This document shows, in pieces, positions 7,865 to 21,871 of a stretch of DNA of 64,000 nucleotides. A program made the translations under genes and the position numbers. This DNA comes from Streptomyces fradiae (GTDB taxonomy: Bacteria; Actinomycetota; Actinomycetes; Streptomycetales; Streptomycetaceae): contig NZ_CP065958.1 of assembly GCF_041270065.1 (NCBI RefSeq), positions 3,844,001 through 3,908,000 on the forward strand. The letters are read 5' to 3'. The notes beneath the pieces are model-generated. The model did not search any database and was not told the origin of the DNA. It saw only the letters and a program-made list of their open reading frames with translations. The stretch's first letter is position 1, and every line of letters starts with the position of its first letter.

Positions 7865-9204
7865 ATGCGGGGTCGGCACGCGCCACCGGCGCTGTTAGTG
7901 CTCTCGCTCCTTCTGGCGATGTGCCCGCAGACCGCGAGCGCGGGCGGCGCCGGGGCGAACGCGCTCGGCATGAGCGTCACCGTGAACACCGTGCCCGGGG
8001 CGGGCGGCGTCACGGTGCGGACCGGCGGGTACGTGGTGAAGCGGTACCGGCTGGTGAACCGGGGCGAGGCCGATCTGTACGGGGTCCGGGTCGGCGATCC
8101 GGGCGTGCCCGGGGGCCAGGCGAGCTGCCCCCGGCGCACCCTCGGCCCGCTCCGCTCGATGGTGTGCACCGCGCGCTTCCGCGCCCTGGCCGGCCGCCAC
8201 ACCGCGACCGCCCGGGCCACCGGCGACATCCCGTCCCTGGGGCAGCGGGCGACCGCCACCGCCCGTTCCGGTTACGAGGGCGTGGCCGGCGCGCTCGCCC
8301 TCGCCGAGGCGGTACGGGTCGGGCCGGCCGGCACCGTGCGTACCGCCACCGTCCGCTACACGGTCACCAACCGGGGCAACCGCCCCGTCCGCGCCCTCCG
8401 GCTCACCGACCCGGTCCTCGGCGCCGCGCCCGGCGGGCTCGTGTGCGCCCTGCCCGAGCTGGCCCCCGGCGTCTCCGCCCGCTGCGAGGCGACCGTACGG
8501 CGCGGGCCCGGCGCCCACCGCAGCGCGGGCCTCGCCGAGGGCACCGACCGGATCACCACCCTCGGCGAACACGGCGAACGCCTCCCGGCCCCGCCGCTCA
8601 CGGCGCGCGCCTCCGCCACGTGGCGGGTGGCGGCGCCACCGGCCCCGCCCGCGCCCCCGGCGCCGTCGGCCCCCTCCGCGTCGCGCCCGCCCCGGACGCC
8701 GCCGCCGCGACGTACGACACCAGCCGGGGCCGCCGGTGCGCCCCCGGGGCACCCGGGGCGCTCGGGGCACCCGCTACCGCCGCCGCGACGGCGGCAACGG
8801 CCGGGGCGATCGCCGAGGCGGTTGCCGAGGCGGTCGCGGCAGCCGCTGCCGACGCGGTGGCGGCCGAAGCGGCGGCCGAGGCCGCCGCAGCACTGGCCGG
8901 CGCCGCGCTCGGCGGGGCCGCCGCCGGCGGAGGGCTGCCCCCGGGCGCCGCCCCGCCGCCCGGCGCGGCTGCCCGCCCGCCCGCGGCGGTCGCCGAGAAC
9001 CCCACCACCCGGCTCCCGACCACCCGGCTCCCCGCCGTACGCCCCCCGCCCGCGCGGGTCGCCGTCCCCGACGACGAGGGCCTGCTGCCCCGCCTGCACC
9101 GCCGCTCCCGCGAACTCCCGCACCTCGGCGTCGTCCTGACCCTGCTGCTGATCCTGATCCCGGCCGCGATCGCGGCCGCCCTGCTCAGCAACCGCCACTC
9201 CTGA
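7865..9204 (+). CDS. Secreted DUF11-like protein with C-terminal membrane anchor; apparent frameshift
   Basis: The frame starting at the ATG at 7865 (GGGAGG upstream) encodes a signal peptide and two immunoglobulin-like DUF11/CARDB-type repeats (about residues 30-140 and 140-260). Each repeat has YRLVNRGEADLYGVRV or YTVTNRGNRPVRALRL and a conserved Cys pair. After about 8640 this frame degenerates into Pro/Arg and stops at 9139. The -1 frame becomes protein-like, giving an Ala-rich stretch and a clear C-terminal anchor ending ALLSNRHS at 9204. The best explanation is one missing base in the C/G-rich stretch at about 8620-8720, by sequencing error, natural mutation or slippage. Codon 11 is TTA (7895-7897), implying dependence on the bldA leucyl-tRNA. 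The function is unknown. Confidence 0.65.
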
Positions 9205-15848: not shown

Positions 15849-17165
15849 CTATACGGGTACGTGTACGGCCTCGACGCGGCTGGCGACGAGGCGTTCGCGC
15901 TCCCGGCGTGCGCTGGCGGACTTGAGCCGGAGGATCTGGACGACGCCGAGGGCCTCCAGGACGAAGACCGAGGAGAACGCGATCCGGTAGTTGTCGCCGG
16001 TCGCGTCGAGCAGCACGCCCACGGCGAAGAGCGTGGTCATGGAGGCGACGAAGCCGCCCATGTTGACGATGCCGGAGGCGGTGCCCTGACGCTCGGGCGG
16101 GTTGGCGGGGCGGGCGAAGTCGAAGCCGATCATCGAGGCGGGTCCGCAGGCGCCGAGGACCGCGCAGAGGGTGATCAGCAGCCACATCGGGGCGCGGTCG
16201 CCGGGGTACGCGAGAGTGGTGCCCCACAGCAGGGCGGTGGCGGCGACCGTGCCGAGGGCGAGCGGGGCGCGGGCGGCGTGGTGGCGGGCGATGATCTGCC
16301 CGTAGGCGAGGCCGACGGCCATGTTGGAGAGCACGACGAGGGTGAGCAGTTCGCCGGCGGTCCCCCGGCCGAGTCCCTGGTCCTCGACGAGGAACGGCAG
16401 GCCCCACAGGAGCAAGAAGACCATCGCGGGGAACTGGGTGGTGAAGTGCACCCACATGCCGAGCCGGGTGCCGGGCTCGCGCCAGGACTCGGCGATCTGG
16501 CGGCGTACGAACGCGGCGCCGGCGTGGGTGGCGGGCGCGGGCTCGTACCCCTCGGGATGGTCCTTGAGGAACAGCAGGAGCAGGACGAGGACGACGACGC
16601 CGGCGAAGGAGCTGCCGACGAAGGTGGTGGTCCAGCCCAGGCCGTGCAGGGCGCGGGAGAGGAAGATCGTCGAGACGAGGTTGCCGGCCATGCCGAAGAG
16701 GGCGGCGACCTGGGCGACGAGCGGCCCGCGGCGGGCCGGGAACCAGCGGCTGCCGAGCCGCAGCACGCTGATGAAGGTCATCGCGTCGCCGCAGCCGAGC
16801 AGGGCGCGGGAGGCGAGCGCCATGGGGTACGAGGGGGAGAGCGCGAAGCCCAGCTGGCCGAGGGTGAACAGCAGGACGCCGATGGTCAGCACCTTCTTGG
16901 TGCCGAGCCGGTCGACCATGAGGCCGACGGGTATCTGCATGCCGGCGTAGACGAGCAGCTGGAGTATGGAGAAGGTCGACAGCGCGGAGGCGTTGACGTC
17001 GAAGCGGTCGGCGGCGTCGAGTCCGGCGACGCCGAGGGAGGTCCGGAAGATGACGGCGACGAAGTAGACGGCGACGCCGACGCCCCAGACGAGGGCGGCG
17101 CGCCGGCCGCCGGGCGGGTCGCCGGGCAGGGTGACGGCGGACCCGTGTGCGTCGCGTCCGCTCAT
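15849..17165 (-). CDS. Major facilitator superfamily transporter
   Basis: The 438-residue membrane protein shows about 12 hydrophobic segments and the MFS loop motif GLMVDRLGTKKVL between helices 2 and 3. A second conserved region follows helix 4 (SRALLGCGDAMTFIS). It has a cytoplasmic middle loop near residue 215 and belongs to the nitrate/oxalate or sugar-phosphate-like transporter branch; the substrate is unknown. Its start codon overlaps the stop of the GntR gene by ATGA (17162-17165), so the two are translationally coupled. The regulator probably controls this exporter or uptake system. Confidence 0.88.
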   Translation of the reverse strand: MSGRDAHGSAVTLPGDPPGGRRAALVWGVGVAVYFVAVIFRTSLGVAGLDAADRFDVNASALSTFSILQLLVYAGMQIPVGLMVDRLGTKKVLTIGVLLFTLGQLGFALSPSYPMALASRALLGCGDAMTFISVLRLGSRWFPARRGPLVAQVAALFGMAGNLVSTIFLSRALHGLGWTTTFVGSSFAGVVVLVLLLLFLKDHPEGYEPAPATHAGAAFVRRQIAESWREPGTRLGMWVHFTTQFPAMVFLLLWGLPFLVEDQGLGRGTAGELLTLVVLSNMAVGLAYGQIIARHHAARAPLALGTVAATALLWGTTLAYPGDRAPMWLLITLCAVLGACGPASMIGFDFARPANPPERQGTASGIVNMGGFVASMTTLFAVGVLLDATGDNYRIAFSSVFVLEALGVVQILRLKSASARRERERLVASRVEAVHVPV

Positions 17166-17803
17166 CGGTCCTCACCCCGGACCAGGATCTTGACCCAGCT
17201 GAGGTGCTGGCGCACGCAGTGCGCTGCGCCCTCGGCGTCGCCGGCTCTGATCCGCTCCAGGATCTCCGCGTGCTCGGCGATGTTCTTGGCGATCCGGTCG
17301 GGCTGGGACTGCATCACGGCGACGCCCATCCGCAGCTGCCGGTCGCGCATCTGGTCGTAGAGGCGGGCCAGGATCTGGTTGCCGGCGTGCTTCACGATCT
17401 CGGCGTGGAAGCAGCGGTCGCTGACGGCGACCTCGGCGAGGTCCCCGGCCTCGGCCCGCCGCTTCTGCTCCTCCAGGAGCTCTTCGAGTCGCGCGACAAG
17501 CCCGGCGGGCGCGGGCACGGCCCGCCGCACGGCGAACTCCTCCACAAGGAGCCGGGTCTCGACGACGTCCGCGATCTCCTGCGCGGAGACGGCGAGCACC
17601 AGCGCGCCCTTCTTCGGATAGAGCTTGAGCAGCCCCTCCATCTCCAGCTTCAGCAACGCCTCCCGCACCGGCGTCCGCGACACCCCCACCGCCTGCGCCA
17701 GCTCCCCCTCGGTGAGCAGCGTCCCACCCTCGTAACGCCGGTCGAGGACCGCCTGCTTGACGTGCATGTAGACGCGGTCTGCTGCCGGGGGTGCGGATGC
17801 CAT
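17162..17803 (-). CDS. GntR family regulator (FadR subfamily)
   Basis: The 213-residue protein has an N-terminal winged helix (YMHVKQAVLDRRYEGG and GELAQAVGVSRTPVREALLKLEMEGLL, about residues 12-75). The all-helical FCD ligand-binding domain follows, with DRCFHAEIVKHAGN (metal ligands Asp/His) and a late His in AEHAEIL. It should sense a small carboxylate or metabolite and act on its own promoter and the coupled transporter. The ATG at 17803 is used; a GTG two codons earlier is possible. A -10-like TATCTA (minus strand, 17819-17814) lies so close that the message is probably leaderless. Confidence 0.88.
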   Translation of the reverse strand: MASAPPAADRVYMHVKQAVLDRRYEGGTLLTEGELAQAVGVSRTPVREALLKLEMEGLLKLYPKKGALVLAVSAQEIADVVETRLLVEEFAVRRAVPAPAGLVARLEELLEEQKRRAEAGDLAEVAVSDRCFHAEIVKHAGNQILARLYDQMRDRQLRMGVAVMQSQPDRIAKNIAEHAEILERIRAGDAEGAAHCVRQHLSWVKILVRGEDR

Positions 17804-17817
17804 GCGCACAGCTTAGA

Positions 17818-17836
17818 TACAACAGGGGTACAACAG
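17818..17836. promoter_or_regulatory. TACAACAG direct repeats at the GntR promoter
   Basis: Two exact copies of TACAACAG (17818-17825 and 17829-17836) are spaced 11 bp, one helical turn. The first overlaps the -10-like hexamer of the GntR-MFS operon. The position suits autorepression by the GntR protein; this is inferred. Confidence 0.5.
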
Positions 17837-17837
17837 A

Positions 17838-17866
17838 CAGGCCCGTCCGCATGCCGGACGGGCCTG
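17838..17866 (-). terminator. Terminator of the AlkB-like operon
   Basis: A 12-bp perfect stem (17838-17849 with 17855-17866) and 5-nt loop starts 9 bases beyond the stop of the 263-residue oxygenase gene. It lies just upstream of the GntR promoter, insulating the two units. Confidence 0.75.
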
Positions 17867-17874
17867 CGTGCCGG

Positions 17875-18666
17875 TCAGGCGGGCGGCAGCAGATCGCTCT
17901 CGCTGACGGTGTAGGTCAGCGGGGGCCAGACGAAGTCCGTCTCGTGGTTCTCGCGGCGCCGCAGGCGGTAGAACTCCTGCCGCTGCTCTTCGTCGGCCGG
18001 CGTGAGGCGGGTGCCCTCGGGGAGGTATGCGTTCCCGTCGCGGTATCGGACGAGGGTCTTCGAGGTCCGGAACGTGACGCCCAGCCACGGGTTGTCCGCC
18101 GCGTCCGCCGCTCCGGCGGGCGCGTCCCACACGATCTTGTGCCGGAGGCGCCGGTTCGAGTCGGTGGAGAACGCGACGACGCTGTGGTGAGCGAGAGGGA
18201 TCTCGAATTTCTCGCCGGGGGATTTCTTCGATTCGAAGATCAGCTTCCTCGACGGGGCCGCTGCGGGATCCTCGTAGCAGGAGAAGACGGCGATGAACGA
18301 CCCGTCGGCCAGATCGAGGGCCTGGTCGGAGTGGCCGCCCATCGTCCGGTAGGCGTTCGTGTAGCGCTCGACGAGGGCGTTGTCGAAGCCGACCGGAAGC
18401 GCCGCGCATTCCTGAACCTGGTGCGCCAGCCGTTGCGCCAGCCGTTCGTGCACCGCGCGGAAACGCTGCGCCGGGGTGCCGTAGCGCGTGGTCGTCCGTA
18501 CGAGAGGCACGCCGCCCGACTCGTCGACCTTCGTCAGCACGGCGCCGCGCCGCCCTTTTCCCAGCTCTTCCCAGTGAACCGACGCCGACAACTCCGCGAA
18601 GAGATTCTCCTCGGTCGGCACAGCGCACGAGATGATCTCGTCCGAGATCCTAGGCTCGGGGGGCAC
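17875..18666 (-). CDS. AlkB-like 2OG-Fe(II) oxygenase, 263 residues
   Basis: No known named gene was recognised. The middle of the protein matches the AlkB/2OG-Fe(II) oxygenase core: NAYRTMGGHSDQALDL with the HxD iron pair (His112, Asp114), the strand FIAVFSCYED, and PLAHHSVVAF. The distal iron ligand is in RLRHKIVW (His176), and LGVTFRTSKT has Arg200 for the 2-oxoglutarate carboxylate. All expected catalytic residues are present, so an oxidative demethylase or hydroxylase activity is plausible; the substrate (nucleic acid, protein or small molecule) is unknown. The gene overlaps the upstream 392-residue gene by 17 bases and must be co-translated with it. Its base composition is visibly less GC-rich than its neighbours. 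Confidence 0.65.
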   Translation of the reverse strand: MPPEPRISDEIISCAVPTEENLFAELSASVHWEELGKGRRGAVLTKVDESGGVPLVRTTTRYGTPAQRFRAVHERLAQRLAHQVQECAALPVGFDNALVERYTNAYRTMGGHSDQALDLADGSFIAVFSCYEDPAAAPSRKLIFESKKSPGEKFEIPLAHHSVVAFSTDSNRRLRHKIVWDAPAGAADAADNPWLGVTFRTSKTLVRYRDGNAYLPEGTRLTPADEEQRQEFYRLRRRENHETDFVWPPLTYTVSESDLLPPA

Positions 18667-19828
18667 GATAATCTCCCGCGTTCATGCTGAAGCGGAATTC
18701 GTCGCCGTAATCGATGAAGGACGAGCTCCTGTTCTCCTCGGCGTACAGCCTGCGCAGCTCGTCCATGCCGGCTTCCGTGGGCGGTTCCAGTCGCACCAGT
18801 TCCTCGGCCGCCTTGAGAAACGTCTGGCCGTCCTTGTGCACGGCTTCGGCGCTCGAACAGCGCACCACGTACCCCAGGCGGGTCGGGAGCAGCTCGGCGT
18901 CCAGCGCCGAGGGCCGGATCTCGTGCGTGTACAGGCGGTTGGTGGACAGCGGCATGAAGAAGACGGAGCCGGGATGGAGGGTGACCGTGAACTGTGCGGG
19001 GAACACCGCCTCGTCGCGTTCTTCGGACGGCTCCTTGAGGCGGAACTGAAGCCTGGTGAGCCCGCTGACGCCCTTCACGCCGTAGTCGAAGCCGTCTTCG
19101 GACAAGGGCTGCAGCCGGTCGAGCCCGTCGTAGAAGGTGCAGAAGGCCATGATGCCGTTGACCGGCATGTCCTTCGTCTTGTCGGCATGGGCCGAGATCT
19201 TGGCCTTGGACTGCTTCCGATCCGCTGTGGCACGGGTGTTGCGGTAGATCTGCGCGAGGACGTGATTCAGCGGCGCCTGGCCCCGGAAGACGGCGGCGGC
19301 CTCGCGGTTCAGCGCCTCGACGATGCTCGTGTCGGTCGGACGGAAACCCTCGGTCGGACCCGACAGATTCGTCGAGCACCGCAGCAGCCGGAAATGCAGC
19401 TCATCACCGTCCTGGGTGACGGGCGTCAGATAGATTCCGCTGCGATGAGCCGTTCCAGGCTTGGTGGACTCCGTCAGCGACTGGAACGCGTGCTCCGCGC
19501 GGATCCGTCCGAAGTGATCGTCACCGAGCCCGAAGAAGCGGCGGTAGTACACCCCGACACCGTGCACGCGGAGGGGAACCCGGCCGAGGTCCTCGACCAC
19601 AACGACCCGGGCAGCCGCTCGCAGTTGACGGTCACTGATCCCGGATATCTCGCCGCACAGGTAGACGGTCTTCTGCGCGAGGTCGAGCGAACCGGAAGCG
19701 AGCTCCTCCGGCGGGACGACCGTCCCGAAGAAGTCCCTGACCACGTCACTGTCCTGCATCTCCGAAGGCGCGACCAAGAGGTTGCCCGCATCCTCGATTC
19801 GGGCTTCTGTCAGCTGAGTTGTCTTCAT
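18650..19828 (-). CDS. AlkB-like 2OG-Fe(II) oxygenase with N-terminal extension, 392 residues
   Basis: The gene is unrecognised by name. The first 150 residues form an extension of unknown fold (a helical start, then strands such as VHGVGVYYRRFFGLGDDHF). The rest contains a second AlkB-type core: AKISAHADKTKDMPVNGIMA with the HxD pair (His214, Asp216), and the strand TVTLHPGSVFFMPLS. The distal His302 is in LYTHEIRP, and RLGYVVRCS supplies the 2-oxoglutarate-binding Arg. The ATG at 19828 has a weak GGGGGACGAG upstream; a GTG at 19882 would add 18 residues. It is first of a two-gene operon with the other oxygenase. Distinct paralogues in tandem suggest a heteromer or sequential reactions. Confidence 0.65.
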   Translation of the reverse strand: MKTTQLTEARIEDAGNLLVAPSEMQDSDVVRDFFGTVVPPEELASGSLDLAQKTVYLCGEISGISDRQLRAAARVVVVEDLGRVPLRVHGVGVYYRRFFGLGDDHFGRIRAEHAFQSLTESTKPGTAHRSGIYLTPVTQDGDELHFRLLRCSTNLSGPTEGFRPTDTSIVEALNREAAAVFRGQAPLNHVLAQIYRNTRATADRKQSKAKISAHADKTKDMPVNGIMAFCTFYDGLDRLQPLSEDGFDYGVKGVSGLTRLQFRLKEPSEERDEAVFPAQFTVTLHPGSVFFMPLSTNRLYTHEIRPSALDAELLPTRLGYVVRCSSAEAVHKDGQTFLKAAEELVRLEPPTEAGMDELRRLYAEENRSSSFIDYGDEFRFSMNAGDYRAPRA

Positions 19829-19887
19829 CAAAACTCGTCCCCCGTTCGCCTCCCGGACCGTGCAGGCGATCGTATCCACCACGCGAA

Positions 19888-19923
19888 CACCCGGTCGGGG
19901 GCGACGACGTCCCCGACCGGGTG
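19888..19923 (-). terminator. Terminator of the small secreted protein gene
   Basis: A 13-bp perfect stem (19888-19900 with 19911-19923) and 10-nt loop lies 26 bases beyond the stop. The right arm plus following bases (CCCCGACCGGGTG, C/T, TTCAC) nearly repeats the terminator at 20397-20435, including a degenerate copy of the parS-bearing tail. Confidence 0.75.
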
Positions 19924-19948
19924 CTTCACATGACCGCCGACGCGCTGC

Positions 19949-20296
19949 CTAGCTCGGCCAGTTGATCCAGCCCGAGCAGCCCTTGTGGTCCTCGCAGACG
20001 CGGAACTGCTTGATCTGCGAGCTGTACGTGGCCCACGGGCCCCAGTCGCCGTGGGCGCCGTTGCCGTCCCACTGCGAGACATGGGCGCCGTTGGCCAGGT
20101 AGGCGTCGGCGTAGACGCCGTTGCCGTCCGACTCGCCGTCGTAGGCGCGCATCGAGTAGGCCGTGGCCTGCGCCCGGTCGTCGCCGTGGGAGGCGGTGAC
20201 GGTCGCCGAGGCGGAGGTCGCGGTGGTGATCGCGAGGAGCGCGGCTCCGCCCAGGATGGTCGAGGCCCGGAGAGCCGTCTTGAGCGACAACTTCAT
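19949..20296 (-). CDS. Small secreted protein
   Basis: The 115-residue product has a clear Sec signal peptide: KLSLKTALRASTILGG, a hydrophobic core, then cleavage near SASA-TV at about residue 32. The mature part of about 83 residues is rich in Gly, Asp, Ala and Tyr, contains YADAYLANGAHVSQWDGNGA, and ends in a Cys-pair loop (CEDHKGCSGW) likely to form a disulfide. It resembles small Streptomyces exported proteins of unknown role; no enzyme motif is present. The gene is flanked by two nearly identical terminator sequences. The ATG at 20296 has GAAGGGGG upstream. Confidence 0.75.
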   Translation of the reverse strand: MKLSLKTALRASTILGGAALLAITTATSASATVTASHGDDRAQATAYSMRAYDGESDGNGVYADAYLANGAHVSQWDGNGAHGDWGPWATYSSQIKQFRVCEDHKGCSGWINWPS

Positions 20297-20396
20297 GATT
20301 CCCCCTTCGTGTCGAGCTTGGTCGAGCGAAGTGGTTCTCGGTCGTCGACGACTCTAGGAAGGCCTTTCGGTAGGGCACCACAGCCATTTACGCCAA

Positions 20397-20435
20397 AACA
20401 CCCGGAGGGGACGGTGTCGTCCCCGACCGGGTGTT
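20397..20435 (-). terminator. Terminator of the first bkd operon
   Basis: AACACCCGG plus GGGG on the left pairs with CCCC plus CCGGGTGTT on the right, with one bulge and a 10-nt loop. It lies 27 bases beyond the E2 stop codon. Its last bases run into the parS palindrome. Confidence 0.7.
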
Positions 20436-20446
20436 TCACGTGAAAC
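20433..20446. other. parS site (ParB-binding palindrome), perfect
   Basis: GTTTCACGTGAAAC is a perfect 14-bp palindrome identical to the Streptomyces parS consensus bound by ParB for origin segregation. It is intergenic, between the bkd operon terminator and its last gene. A second perfect copy is at 38836-38849. Confidence 0.9.
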
Positions 20447-20461
20447 AACGCAACCAGGCGG

Positions 20462-21871
20462 CTACGCCCAGGTGATGAGTCGCTTCGGCTGCTCCAGGAT
20501 CGCCGCGATGTCGGCCAGGAACTTCGACCCCAGCTCGCCGTCGATCAGGCGGTGGTCGAAGGACAGGGCCAGGGTGGTGACCTGGCGGGGCTTCACCTTG
20601 CCCTTGTGGACCCAGGGCTGGAAGCGGATCGCGCCGACCGCGAGGATCGCGGACTCGCCCGGGTTGATGATCGGGGTACCGGTGTCGACGCCGAAGACGC
20701 CGACGTTGGTGATGGTGAAGGTGCCGCCCTGCATCGCCGCCGGCGTGGTCTTGCCCTCGCGGGCGGTGGAGACCAGCTCGCTGAGCGAGCGCGACAGGTC
20801 CGGCAGGGTCTGGGCGTGCGCGTCCTTGATGTTCGGCACGATCAGACCGCGCGGGGTGGCCGCCGCGATGCCCAGGTTCACATAGTGCTTGAGCACGATC
20901 TCCTGGGCGGCCTCGTCCCAGGCCGCGTTGACGTCCGGGTTGCGCTTGATCGCGACCAGGACCGCCTTGGCGATGAGGAGGAGCGGGTTGACCCGCAGGC
21001 CCGCCATGTCCTTGTCGGACTTGAGCTCGTCGACCAGCTTCATCGTGCGCGTGATGTCGAAGGTGATGAACTCGGTGACGTGCGGCGCGGTGAAGGCCGA
21101 GCCGACCATCGCCGCCGCCGTGGCCTTCCGTACGCCCTTGATGGGGATACGGGTCTCCCGGGCGTCCGACGGAACGGCGAGCGCCGGGGCCTCGGCCGCC
21201 GGGGCCGCCACCGGAGCGACCGGCGCGGGCGCGGCCACGGGGGCCGGGGCCTCGGCCGGGGCCGCCGCGCGGTGCACGTCCTCGCGGGTGATGATGCCGT
21301 CCGGGCCGGTCGGGGTGACCGAGGCCAGGTCGACGCCCAGGTCCTTGGCGAGCTTGCGCACCGGCGGCTTGGCCAGCGGGCGGCCGGCGACGGCGGGGCC
21401 GTGGCCGTTCAGCTGCTCGGGGACCACCGGCGCCGCGGCCTCGGGGGCCGCCGCCTCGGCCGGGGCCGCCGACTTGCGGGCCCGGCGCTTGGTGGCCGAC
21501 GCGGCCACGCCGTAACCGACGAGGACCGGCTGCCGGCCCTCCGGCTCGGGCTCCTCCGCCACCGGGGCCGCCACCGGGGCCGCCACGGGCTCGGCGGCCG
21601 GCGCCGCGGGCGCCTCGGGCGCGGCGCCGCCGCCCACGTTCACCGTGATGATGACCTCGCCGACGGCGACCGTGGTGCCCTCGGGGAAGCGCAGCTCGTG
21701 CACGGTGCCGTCGAACGGGATCGGCAGTTCGACGGCGGCCTTCGCGGTCTCGACCTCGATCACGACCTGGCCGTCGGTGACGGTGTCACCGGGCTGGACG
21801 TACCACTTGAGGATCTCGGCCTCGGTGAGGCCCTCGCCCACGTCGGGCATCTTGAATTCGCGGATCGTCAT
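20462..21871 (-). CDS. bkdC: Branched-chain 2-oxoacid dehydrogenase E2 (dihydrolipoamide acyltransferase), copy 1
   Basis: The 469-residue E2 has one lipoyl domain (residues 1-80) with the lipoylated lysine in IEVETAKAAVELP. A long Ala/Pro linker follows, then a peripheral-subunit-binding domain (PPVRKLAKDLGVDLASVTPTGPDG, about 170-205) and a C-terminal acyltransferase domain with the catalytic LSFDHRLIDG. It transfers the branched acyl group from E1 to CoA, giving isobutyryl-, isovaleryl- and 2-methylbutyryl-CoA for fatty-acid priming and catabolism. It is the last gene of the operon, 13 bases after E1beta. A pyruvate dehydrogenase E2 is possible from this gene alone, but the paired E1alpha/E1beta form favours the branched-chain complex. 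Confidence 0.88.
   Translation of the reverse strand: MTIREFKMPDVGEGLTEAEILKWYVQPGDTVTDGQVVIEVETAKAAVELPIPFDGTVHELRFPEGTTVAVGEVIITVNVGGGAAPEAPAAPAAEPVAAPVAAPVAEEPEPEGRQPVLVGYGVAASATKRRARKSAAPAEAAAPEAAAPVVPEQLNGHGPAVAGRPLAKPPVRKLAKDLGVDLASVTPTGPDGIITREDVHRAAAPAEAPAPVAAPAPVAPVAAPAAEAPALAVPSDARETRIPIKGVRKATAAAMVGSAFTAPHVTEFITFDITRTMKLVDELKSDKDMAGLRVNPLLLIAKAVLVAIKRNPDVNAAWDEAAQEIVLKHYVNLGIAAATPRGLIVPNIKDAHAQTLPDLSRSLSELVSTAREGKTTPAAMQGGTFTITNVGVFGVDTGTPIINPGESAILAVGAIRFQPWVHKGKVKPRQVTTLALSFDHRLIDGELGSKFLADIAAILEQPKRLITWA

Follow-up and report, generated by a model that had tools for sequence, protein, structure and literature searches.

The human DNA/RNA dealkylases ALKBH2 and ALKBH3 and AlkB of Escherichia coli act as single proteins, and all AlkB proteins known to us work alone. 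According to the passages of PMC7467159 that deal with the E. coli enzyme, AlkB holds its iron through His131, Asp133 and His187 and binds the C5 carboxylate of its co-substrate 2-oxoglutarate (2OG) through Arg204. Bacterial AlkB groups, including ALKBH2_HighGC and ALKBH14, are described in PMC3265494 as occurring in actinobacteria. Here we describe two overlapping genes for diverged AlkB-like proteins in Streptomyces fradiae. They lie in a stretch of 64,000 nucleotides (contig NZ_CP065958.1, positions 3,844,001 to 3,908,000; hereafter the window), which spans 3.84-3.91 Mb of one contig 7.88 Mb long. We refer to the upstream gene as A (P0001) and to the downstream gene as B (P0002). Our preferred reading, which we put forward tentatively, is that they form a self-contained mobile two-gene unit of filamentous actinomycetes that would make an asymmetric AlkB-type oxygenase with a modified base as substrate.

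The occurrence of the pair was followed in two genome surveys, one of 391 genomes of the order and one of 100 relatives, and in a set of 81 loci consisting of the window and the best 80 of 166 A relatives from a scan of genome contigs. These 166 relatives come from one genome collection, in which the pair is common. Homologue lists comprised the best 120 protein matches each for A and B, all of them close. We found A in 53/391 genomes of the order and a near-full-length B, adjacent by coordinates, in the same 53, and no intact A or B stood alone in any of the 391. Similarly, among the 100 relatives A was present in 12 and B in the same 12, and B follows A by tblastn in 80/80 loci of the set beyond the window. 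Two further genomes carry fragments of B only (G615, locus L175, and G802, locus L176), which suggests loss of the pair. Two of the 53 A copies are not whole: that of G686 (L179) lies in two frames and that of G801 (L174) is without approximately its first 92 residues, the N-terminal extension. An earlier note on this DNA had named routine splitting or loss in close relatives as evidence against a single unit; an intact split was not found, while the pair is absent from 88/100 relatives and 338/391 genomes.

The layout of the two genes is conserved as well. The 17-bp overlap described in the earlier note is a true overlap of two open reading frames (ORFs); judged from actual stop codons, its length is exactly 17 bp in 77/81 loci. 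The remaining 4 (L061, L073, L110 and L118) have 29 bp, and L110 lacks a start codon at the position aligned with the start of B. The motif GGGAG lies no more than 15 nucleotides (nt) before B in 67/81 loci. Since the overlap register is the same in 77/81 loci and the matched stretches are free of in-frame stops (0/81 for A, 0/81 for B), the pair is more than a product of chance. Distances among A copies follow those among B copies (Mantel r 0.73; maximum of 500 permutations 0.25), with mean distances of 0.21 for A and 0.25 for B. The closest named relative of the window is Streptomyces sp. SKN60, with 94% identity in A and 92% in B; judged by location and identity, it appears to correspond to genome G731, which is classed with the same species. 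Between the window and SKN60, A shows 0.030 nonsynonymous (dN) and 0.123 synonymous (dS) substitutions per site, a comparison made for A only, the B stretches being unequal in length. Overall, the proposal that two non-identical AlkB-like proteins form one unit is strongly supported by their pairing (53/53 genomes, 80/80 loci), the Mantel correlation and the shared fold described below. The region was also rightly described as poorer in guanine plus cytosine (GC) than its surroundings, with 0.663 in the pair against 0.730 in the window, a value as low or lower in 2/125 sliding windows of the pair's size (minimum 0.659; windows overlapping the pair included). The highest GC of any kilobase of the window is at 8001-9000 (83%).

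A and B are also related to each other. BLASTP aligns them with 23% identity over 250 residues (E 1e-5), and in a tree 14 A and 14 B rows (of 81 each) fall on one side of a branch (100/99) and 26 rows of ordinary AlkB proteins on the other. Their kinship, as judged from these comparisons, is consistent with an old duplication.

Structure prediction placed both proteins in the AlkB superfamily. B matches PF13532 (2OG-FeII_Oxy_2) with 34.1 bits and is thus above the Pfam gathering score of 31.2; A is below it with 24.0 bits (E 5.3e-5), and is classed as a divergent AlkB relative by its predicted fold and its residues, not by the Pfam model. The AlphaFold2 model of B has a predicted local distance difference test score (pLDDT) of 79 and a predicted template modelling score (pTM) of 0.81, and the model of A has 62 and 0.64, respectively. 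The best Foldseek and VIA matches of both models were human ALKBH2 and ALKBH3, with the AlkB-type double-stranded beta-helix and with 10-23% identity in the VIA alignments listed. The AlkB-like fold foreseen in the earlier note was accordingly recovered for A and B, and a fold unrelated to the double-stranded beta-helix was not seen. In a profile search of solved structures by sequence, B matched ALKBH2 weakly (E 0.017). Structural matches of A set in between about residues 77 and 89, in most cases at 83-88, which leaves some 80 residues outside the AlkB fold instead of the 150-residue extension claimed before; no family was named for this extension among the VIA-align rows, a result that excludes nothing. 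In the window, A is about 17 residues shorter near residue 79 than most relatives (409 amino acids, aa), and the SKN60 copy is equally short. Among other databases, NCBIfam matches (E 0.19 and 0.1) were at chance level, and we took as chance both a match of A to a T4 baseplate protein (E 0.13) and one of B to a PHROG of unknown function (E 0.031). PADLOC gave 0 families for A or B at E up to 10.

The two active sites are not alike (Table 1). A has the full set of iron ligands and the arginines at both AlkB positions, and its residues Q193 and Y195 are likewise invariant (81/81). B has the iron ligands and the second arginine, but carries tryptophan where AlkB has the arginine that anchors 2OG. 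This register was read from the C-terminal range ends of the VIA alignments, not from coordinates: A residue 327 faces AlkB 214, ALKBH2 258 and ALKBH3 279, and B residue 204 faces AlkB 214 and ALKBH2 258, which sets R317/R323 of A and W194/R200 of B at R204/R210 of AlkB. Ordinary AlkB proteins showed R-x5-R after the distal histidine in 26 of 27 matches from 15 genomes, under a pattern that favoured frames with the motif (L200 was dropped when a wrong frame was caught). Another residue of B, E100, is invariant in 81/81 loci and faces in a profile alignment an Asn of ALKBH2 that we take to be a contact to 2OG; the conserved basic residues R140 and K147 on the next strand have counterparts in ALKBH2. 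Since Trp194 is found in all B copies examined, the B site lacks the canonical 2OG anchor. Read at the sequence level, B is an AlkB-fold protein that retains a putative iron site, rather than an established canonical 2OG oxygenase. Thus, of the complete 2OG and iron site that had been ascribed to both proteins, the motif residues are all in their places and the site of A is complete, but that of B is not.

The pair is flanked by a 2-oxoacid dehydrogenase E2 gene on one side and a GntR gene on the other, and the slot between these two genes varies in content. Seven relatives were read at this slot. G041, where almost nothing separates two hairpins, represents the native empty site; the slot is nearly as short in G025 and G030, and it holds other sequence (0.5-1.3 kb) in G004, G015, G034 and G006. 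Both hairpins flanking the pair in the window have counterparts in the empty site and are therefore older than the insertion, which rules them out as terminators belonging to the pair itself. Neither promoters nor terminators (0 of each) were predicted by a consensus scan of 17000-20600, although such scans miss many Streptomyces sites. The pair had been credited with a promoter and a terminator of its own, for which we found no support, and with a position away from known modification genes, which inspection of the neighbouring ORFs by eye confirmed. The same slot is occupied by the pair in SKN60, G546 and G686, pointing to partly vertical inheritance within the clade. By eye, the slot of two relatives holds a D-alanyl-D-alanine carboxypeptidase-like gene. 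In the window, a small protein of 115 aa with a signal-peptide-like start (by eye) is encoded between the E2 gene and A (19949-20296, minus strand). Its gene is flanked by a 47-bp direct repeat (19887-19933 and 20397-20443) that includes the terminator-like hairpin, and is absent from SKN60 and present in G686.

Table 1. Positions in the window of the gene pair, its active-site residues and the slot that holds it.
Feature	Position	Strand	Remarks
Gene A	19828..18650	-	392 aa; ATG at matching position in 58/81 loci
Gene B	18666..17875	-	263 aa; GTG start; TTG at that position in 59/81 loci
A/B overlap, 17 bp	18650..18666	-	both ORFs
GGGAG, Shine-Dalgarno-like, for B	18673..18677	-	within the end of A, 6 nt upstream of the B GTG
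A HxD iron ligands H214, D216	19181..19189	-	81/81 loci, 120/120 listed homologues
A distal iron ligand H302	18923..18925	-	81/81 loci, 120/120 listed homologues
A R317 and R323 (AlkB R204 and R210 positions)	18860..18880	-	81/81 loci, 120/120 listed homologues
B HxD iron ligands H112, D114	18325..18333	-	81/81 loci, 121/121 homologues
B distal iron ligand H176	18139..18141	-	81/81 loci, 121/121 homologues
B Trp194 at AlkB Arg204 (2OG C5-carboxylate anchor) position	18085..18087	-	81/81 loci, 121/121 homologues; structural register
B Arg200 (AlkB R210 position)	18067..18069	-	81/81 loci, 121/121 homologues
Variable slot E2-GntR	17866-20421		holds the pair; in relatives also almost nothing or other sequence (0.5-1.3 kb)
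Hairpin	17840-17864	.	10 nt past the B stop; counterpart in empty site
Hairpin upstream of A	19889-19922	.	one of two copies of E2-side terminator-like hairpin; counterpart in empty site

We then considered how the pair is distributed. It was found in Streptomyces, Actinomadura, Kitasatospora, Streptacidiphilus, Catenulispora, Actinocorallia, Embleya and Yinghuangia; two plasmid records from Embleya and a Nonomuraea record of 11.9 Mb carry copies as well. Among 79 A copies with a named genus (names as in the records; newer taxonomy may differ), the nearest A copy belonged to another genus in 29/79 cases and to another order in 12/79; the corresponding figures for B were 27/79 and 10/79. Neighbouring genes vary among 12 genomes, but are common to G063 and G066, and a few families are present in two loci. 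When 1041 neighbour ORFs of 79 loci, called with a rough ORF caller, were clustered, no family occurred in more than 8 loci and no third conserved gene emerged. The immediate neighbours formed a set of 139 (of up to 160 from 80 loci, leaving out ORFs above 700 aa or below 90 aa and sides without a called ORF). No Pfam family had more than 5 members among them, with no transposase in the 25 families shown of 152, and short-chain dehydrogenases and helix-turn-helix (HTH) regulators were the commonest (5/139 each). PADLOC families reached at most 3/139 among the 25 shown of 38. These neighbour counts have no random-locus control set beside them. Phage origin was rejected: no match with an E value of 1 or below turned up when A and B were compared by tblastn with 50,697 phage records, and of the pattern matches from two IMG/VR scans for short peptides (40 in one, 3 in the other) none was confirmed. 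Profile searches for distant kin returned just the pair (A in 2/396 genomes of the phylum, B in 2/246 genomes of the class), with few candidates scored per genome, such that distant kin may have been missed. Taken together, the varied neighbours, the 12/79 nearest copies from other orders and the native empty site indicate that A-B appears to be a horizontally moving, apparently mobile two-gene unit.

Some lineages carry an additional leader upstream of A. A conserved stretch before A, approximately 150 nt in length, contains a hairpin (model R1; for example L045:510-595 and L116:9871-9956) in 24/81 sources, the window not among them, and the leader was therefore rejected as a universal part of the core. 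R1 was built from 22 of these 24, and 2 are independent. The hairpin shows compensatory changes: in the alignment, 95.4% of cells are paired, 7/17 pairs show a double change and 0/500 shuffles scored as high, a contrast that relatedness alone can produce. A promoter-like motif, in a pattern composed after those sequences were seen, is present in 22/81 loci, 20 of them among the 24 hairpin loci, and in 0/324 control stretches from the downstream side. In L046 the hairpin is absent and the start of the promoter-like stretch is kept at -84. Across 24 whole genomes searched at E <1e-5, R1 was found once per genome, before A, in 5/13 genomes bearing the pair and in 0/11 without it. Rfam gave no match in the three loci searched. 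The leader is thus a lineage-specific element, probably one of control.

How might the two proteins work? Judged from their sequences, they may fairly be regarded as a heteromeric or two-step system. Constant pairing, overlapping frames and one altered site argue for an asymmetric two-part AlkB machine, and, because the site of B is incomplete, an asymmetric pair seems likelier than two equal enzymes. A and B would be diverged sister paralogues held at a fixed ratio through translational coupling. A, with its complete iron and 2OG site, would perform the oxidation, and B would assist as a partner by recognising the substrate or placing it in position, or else would carry out a second metal-dependent step. 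The likely substrate would be an alkylated or otherwise modified base of DNA or RNA; that it is a nucleic acid is probable from the fold and from the nearest solved relatives, ALKBH2 and ALKBH3, which are the sole basis of this view. Other AlkB genes were present in 15/15 genomes tested, so the pair is an addition and not a replacement. It could represent an optional supplement to the core AlkB genes, presumably of benefit to organisms that live among DNA-damaging natural products. In the genome of the window, the ordinary AlkB genes are at G000:C1:4718573-4719142 (L040) and 7465507-7465833; by eye, the one in L040 overlaps an Ogt/MGMT-like gene, an alkylation-repair arrangement. A more detailed version, possible though doubtful, is that of a mobile obligate AlkB heteromer in which B has been rebuilt around Trp194 and Glu100 so as to hold metal although the canonical 2OG anchor is gone, and acts either as an obligate subunit for recognition or as an AlkB-fold enzyme for a different co-substrate. 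Such a heteromer would serve optional (de)modification or repair of nucleic acid, in some lineages under its own promoter and leader hairpin.

Several observations weigh against an asymmetric, mobile, nucleic-acid-directed unit. B could bind 2OG in another way, and its invariant metal ligands favour chemistry over a purely structural role. Fold similarity is no proof of a nucleic-acid substrate, and no gene in the 79-locus clustering or among the 139 immediate neighbours indicates repair or a substrate. The model of A is only moderate, with pLDDT <50 over its last 32 residues. In the clade of A and B, branches are 2-4 changes per column long and A falls inside B, so long-branch attraction is possible. 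Much of the inheritance is vertical, given that 50/79 loci have their closest copy within their own genus and that several genomes of the window's clade share the slot. Finally, as the incomplete A copies and the B-only fragments, in two genomes each, indicate, the pair has also been lost.

Of three other explanations that are open, we rank two enzymes serving a single pathway first, a role on a small molecule second and one in defence third. A and B could be independent 2OG-dependent enzymes for different steps of one nucleic-acid modification or demodification, with B anchoring 2OG via another residue. The iron ligands and R200 of B, invariant in 81/81 loci, would be needless in a dead partner, and the similar divergence of the two genes points the same way. 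However, every B copy examined has Trp at the Arg204 position, E100 faces the Asn of ALKBH2, and no new anchor is visible, since R140 and K147 are matched in ALKBH2; we consider two full enzymes unlikely. Alternatively, the pair might tailor or detoxify a small molecule, a natural product or a xenobiotic, with the AlkB fold reflecting mere ancestry. The hosts belong to what we take to be antibiotic-producing actinomycete groups, and the commonest neighbours, short-chain dehydrogenases and HTH regulators, would suit such a role. Yet no constant biosynthetic cluster surrounds the pair, as no family recurs in more than 8/79 loci or 5/139 neighbours, and the nearest solved folds are those of nucleic-acid enzymes, which makes for a distinctly unlikely account.

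A defence against phages, or another conflict system directed at incoming nucleic acid, would be in keeping with a patchy, apparently mobile unit of two overlapping genes that has no match in the phage records and none confirmed in IMG/VR. Against this, neither protein matches a PADLOC family and the neighbours are unlike those of a defence island, the top PADLOC family reaching 3/139 among those shown, again with no control set, and we regard a defence role as more improbable still. Least credible of all, and already disfavoured, is the view that the pair is simply a duplicated DNA-repair AlkB of the ordinary kind, its members not specially coupled. Membership of the same superfamily and the AlkB genes elsewhere in all 15 genomes speak for such an origin, but with A and B only 23% identical any duplication must be old, and the two have been kept together across genera and orders.

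No description of this pair was found in our searches of open-access literature, judged from listings and abstract openings, and among the best 120 matches of each protein the names given by the sources do not go beyond 'hypothetical protein', 'uncharacterized protein', 'Fe2OG dioxygenase domain-containing' and 'alpha-ketoglutarate-dependent dioxygenase AlkB'. If the asymmetric pair is real, it would be a new arrangement in a well-studied superfamily, that of diverged AlkB paralogues that move together, one of them with an altered co-substrate pocket. It would put to the test the existence of AlkB-fold catalytic-plus-partner pairs, or of AlkB action without 2-oxoglutarate, and could direct attention to a modification or lesion of nucleic acid in actinomycetes.

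Comparison with known systems sets the pair apart in several respects. The ordinary AlkB proteins of the same genome share with it PF13532, the iron ligands and R-x5-R, yet lie across the 100/99 branch from A and B. By analogy only, METTL3-METTL14 is a heterodimer of nucleic-acid enzymes with a catalytic member and a partner. The pair would resemble it in the cooperation of one complete and one degenerate paralogue, but METTL3 and METTL14 are methyltransferases of an unrelated fold, and B still has its metal ligands. The AlkB groups of PMC3265494 belong to the same superfamily and likewise occur in actinobacteria, and the passages concerned mention no gene pair. ALKBH2, ALKBH3 and E. coli AlkB have in common with the pair the double-stranded beta-helix and the HxD...H iron site, and A also has both 2OG arginines. 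Unlike these enzymes, A and B form a constant pair of diverged paralogues, in which A bears about 80 extra N-terminal residues and B has tryptophan at the Arg204 position.
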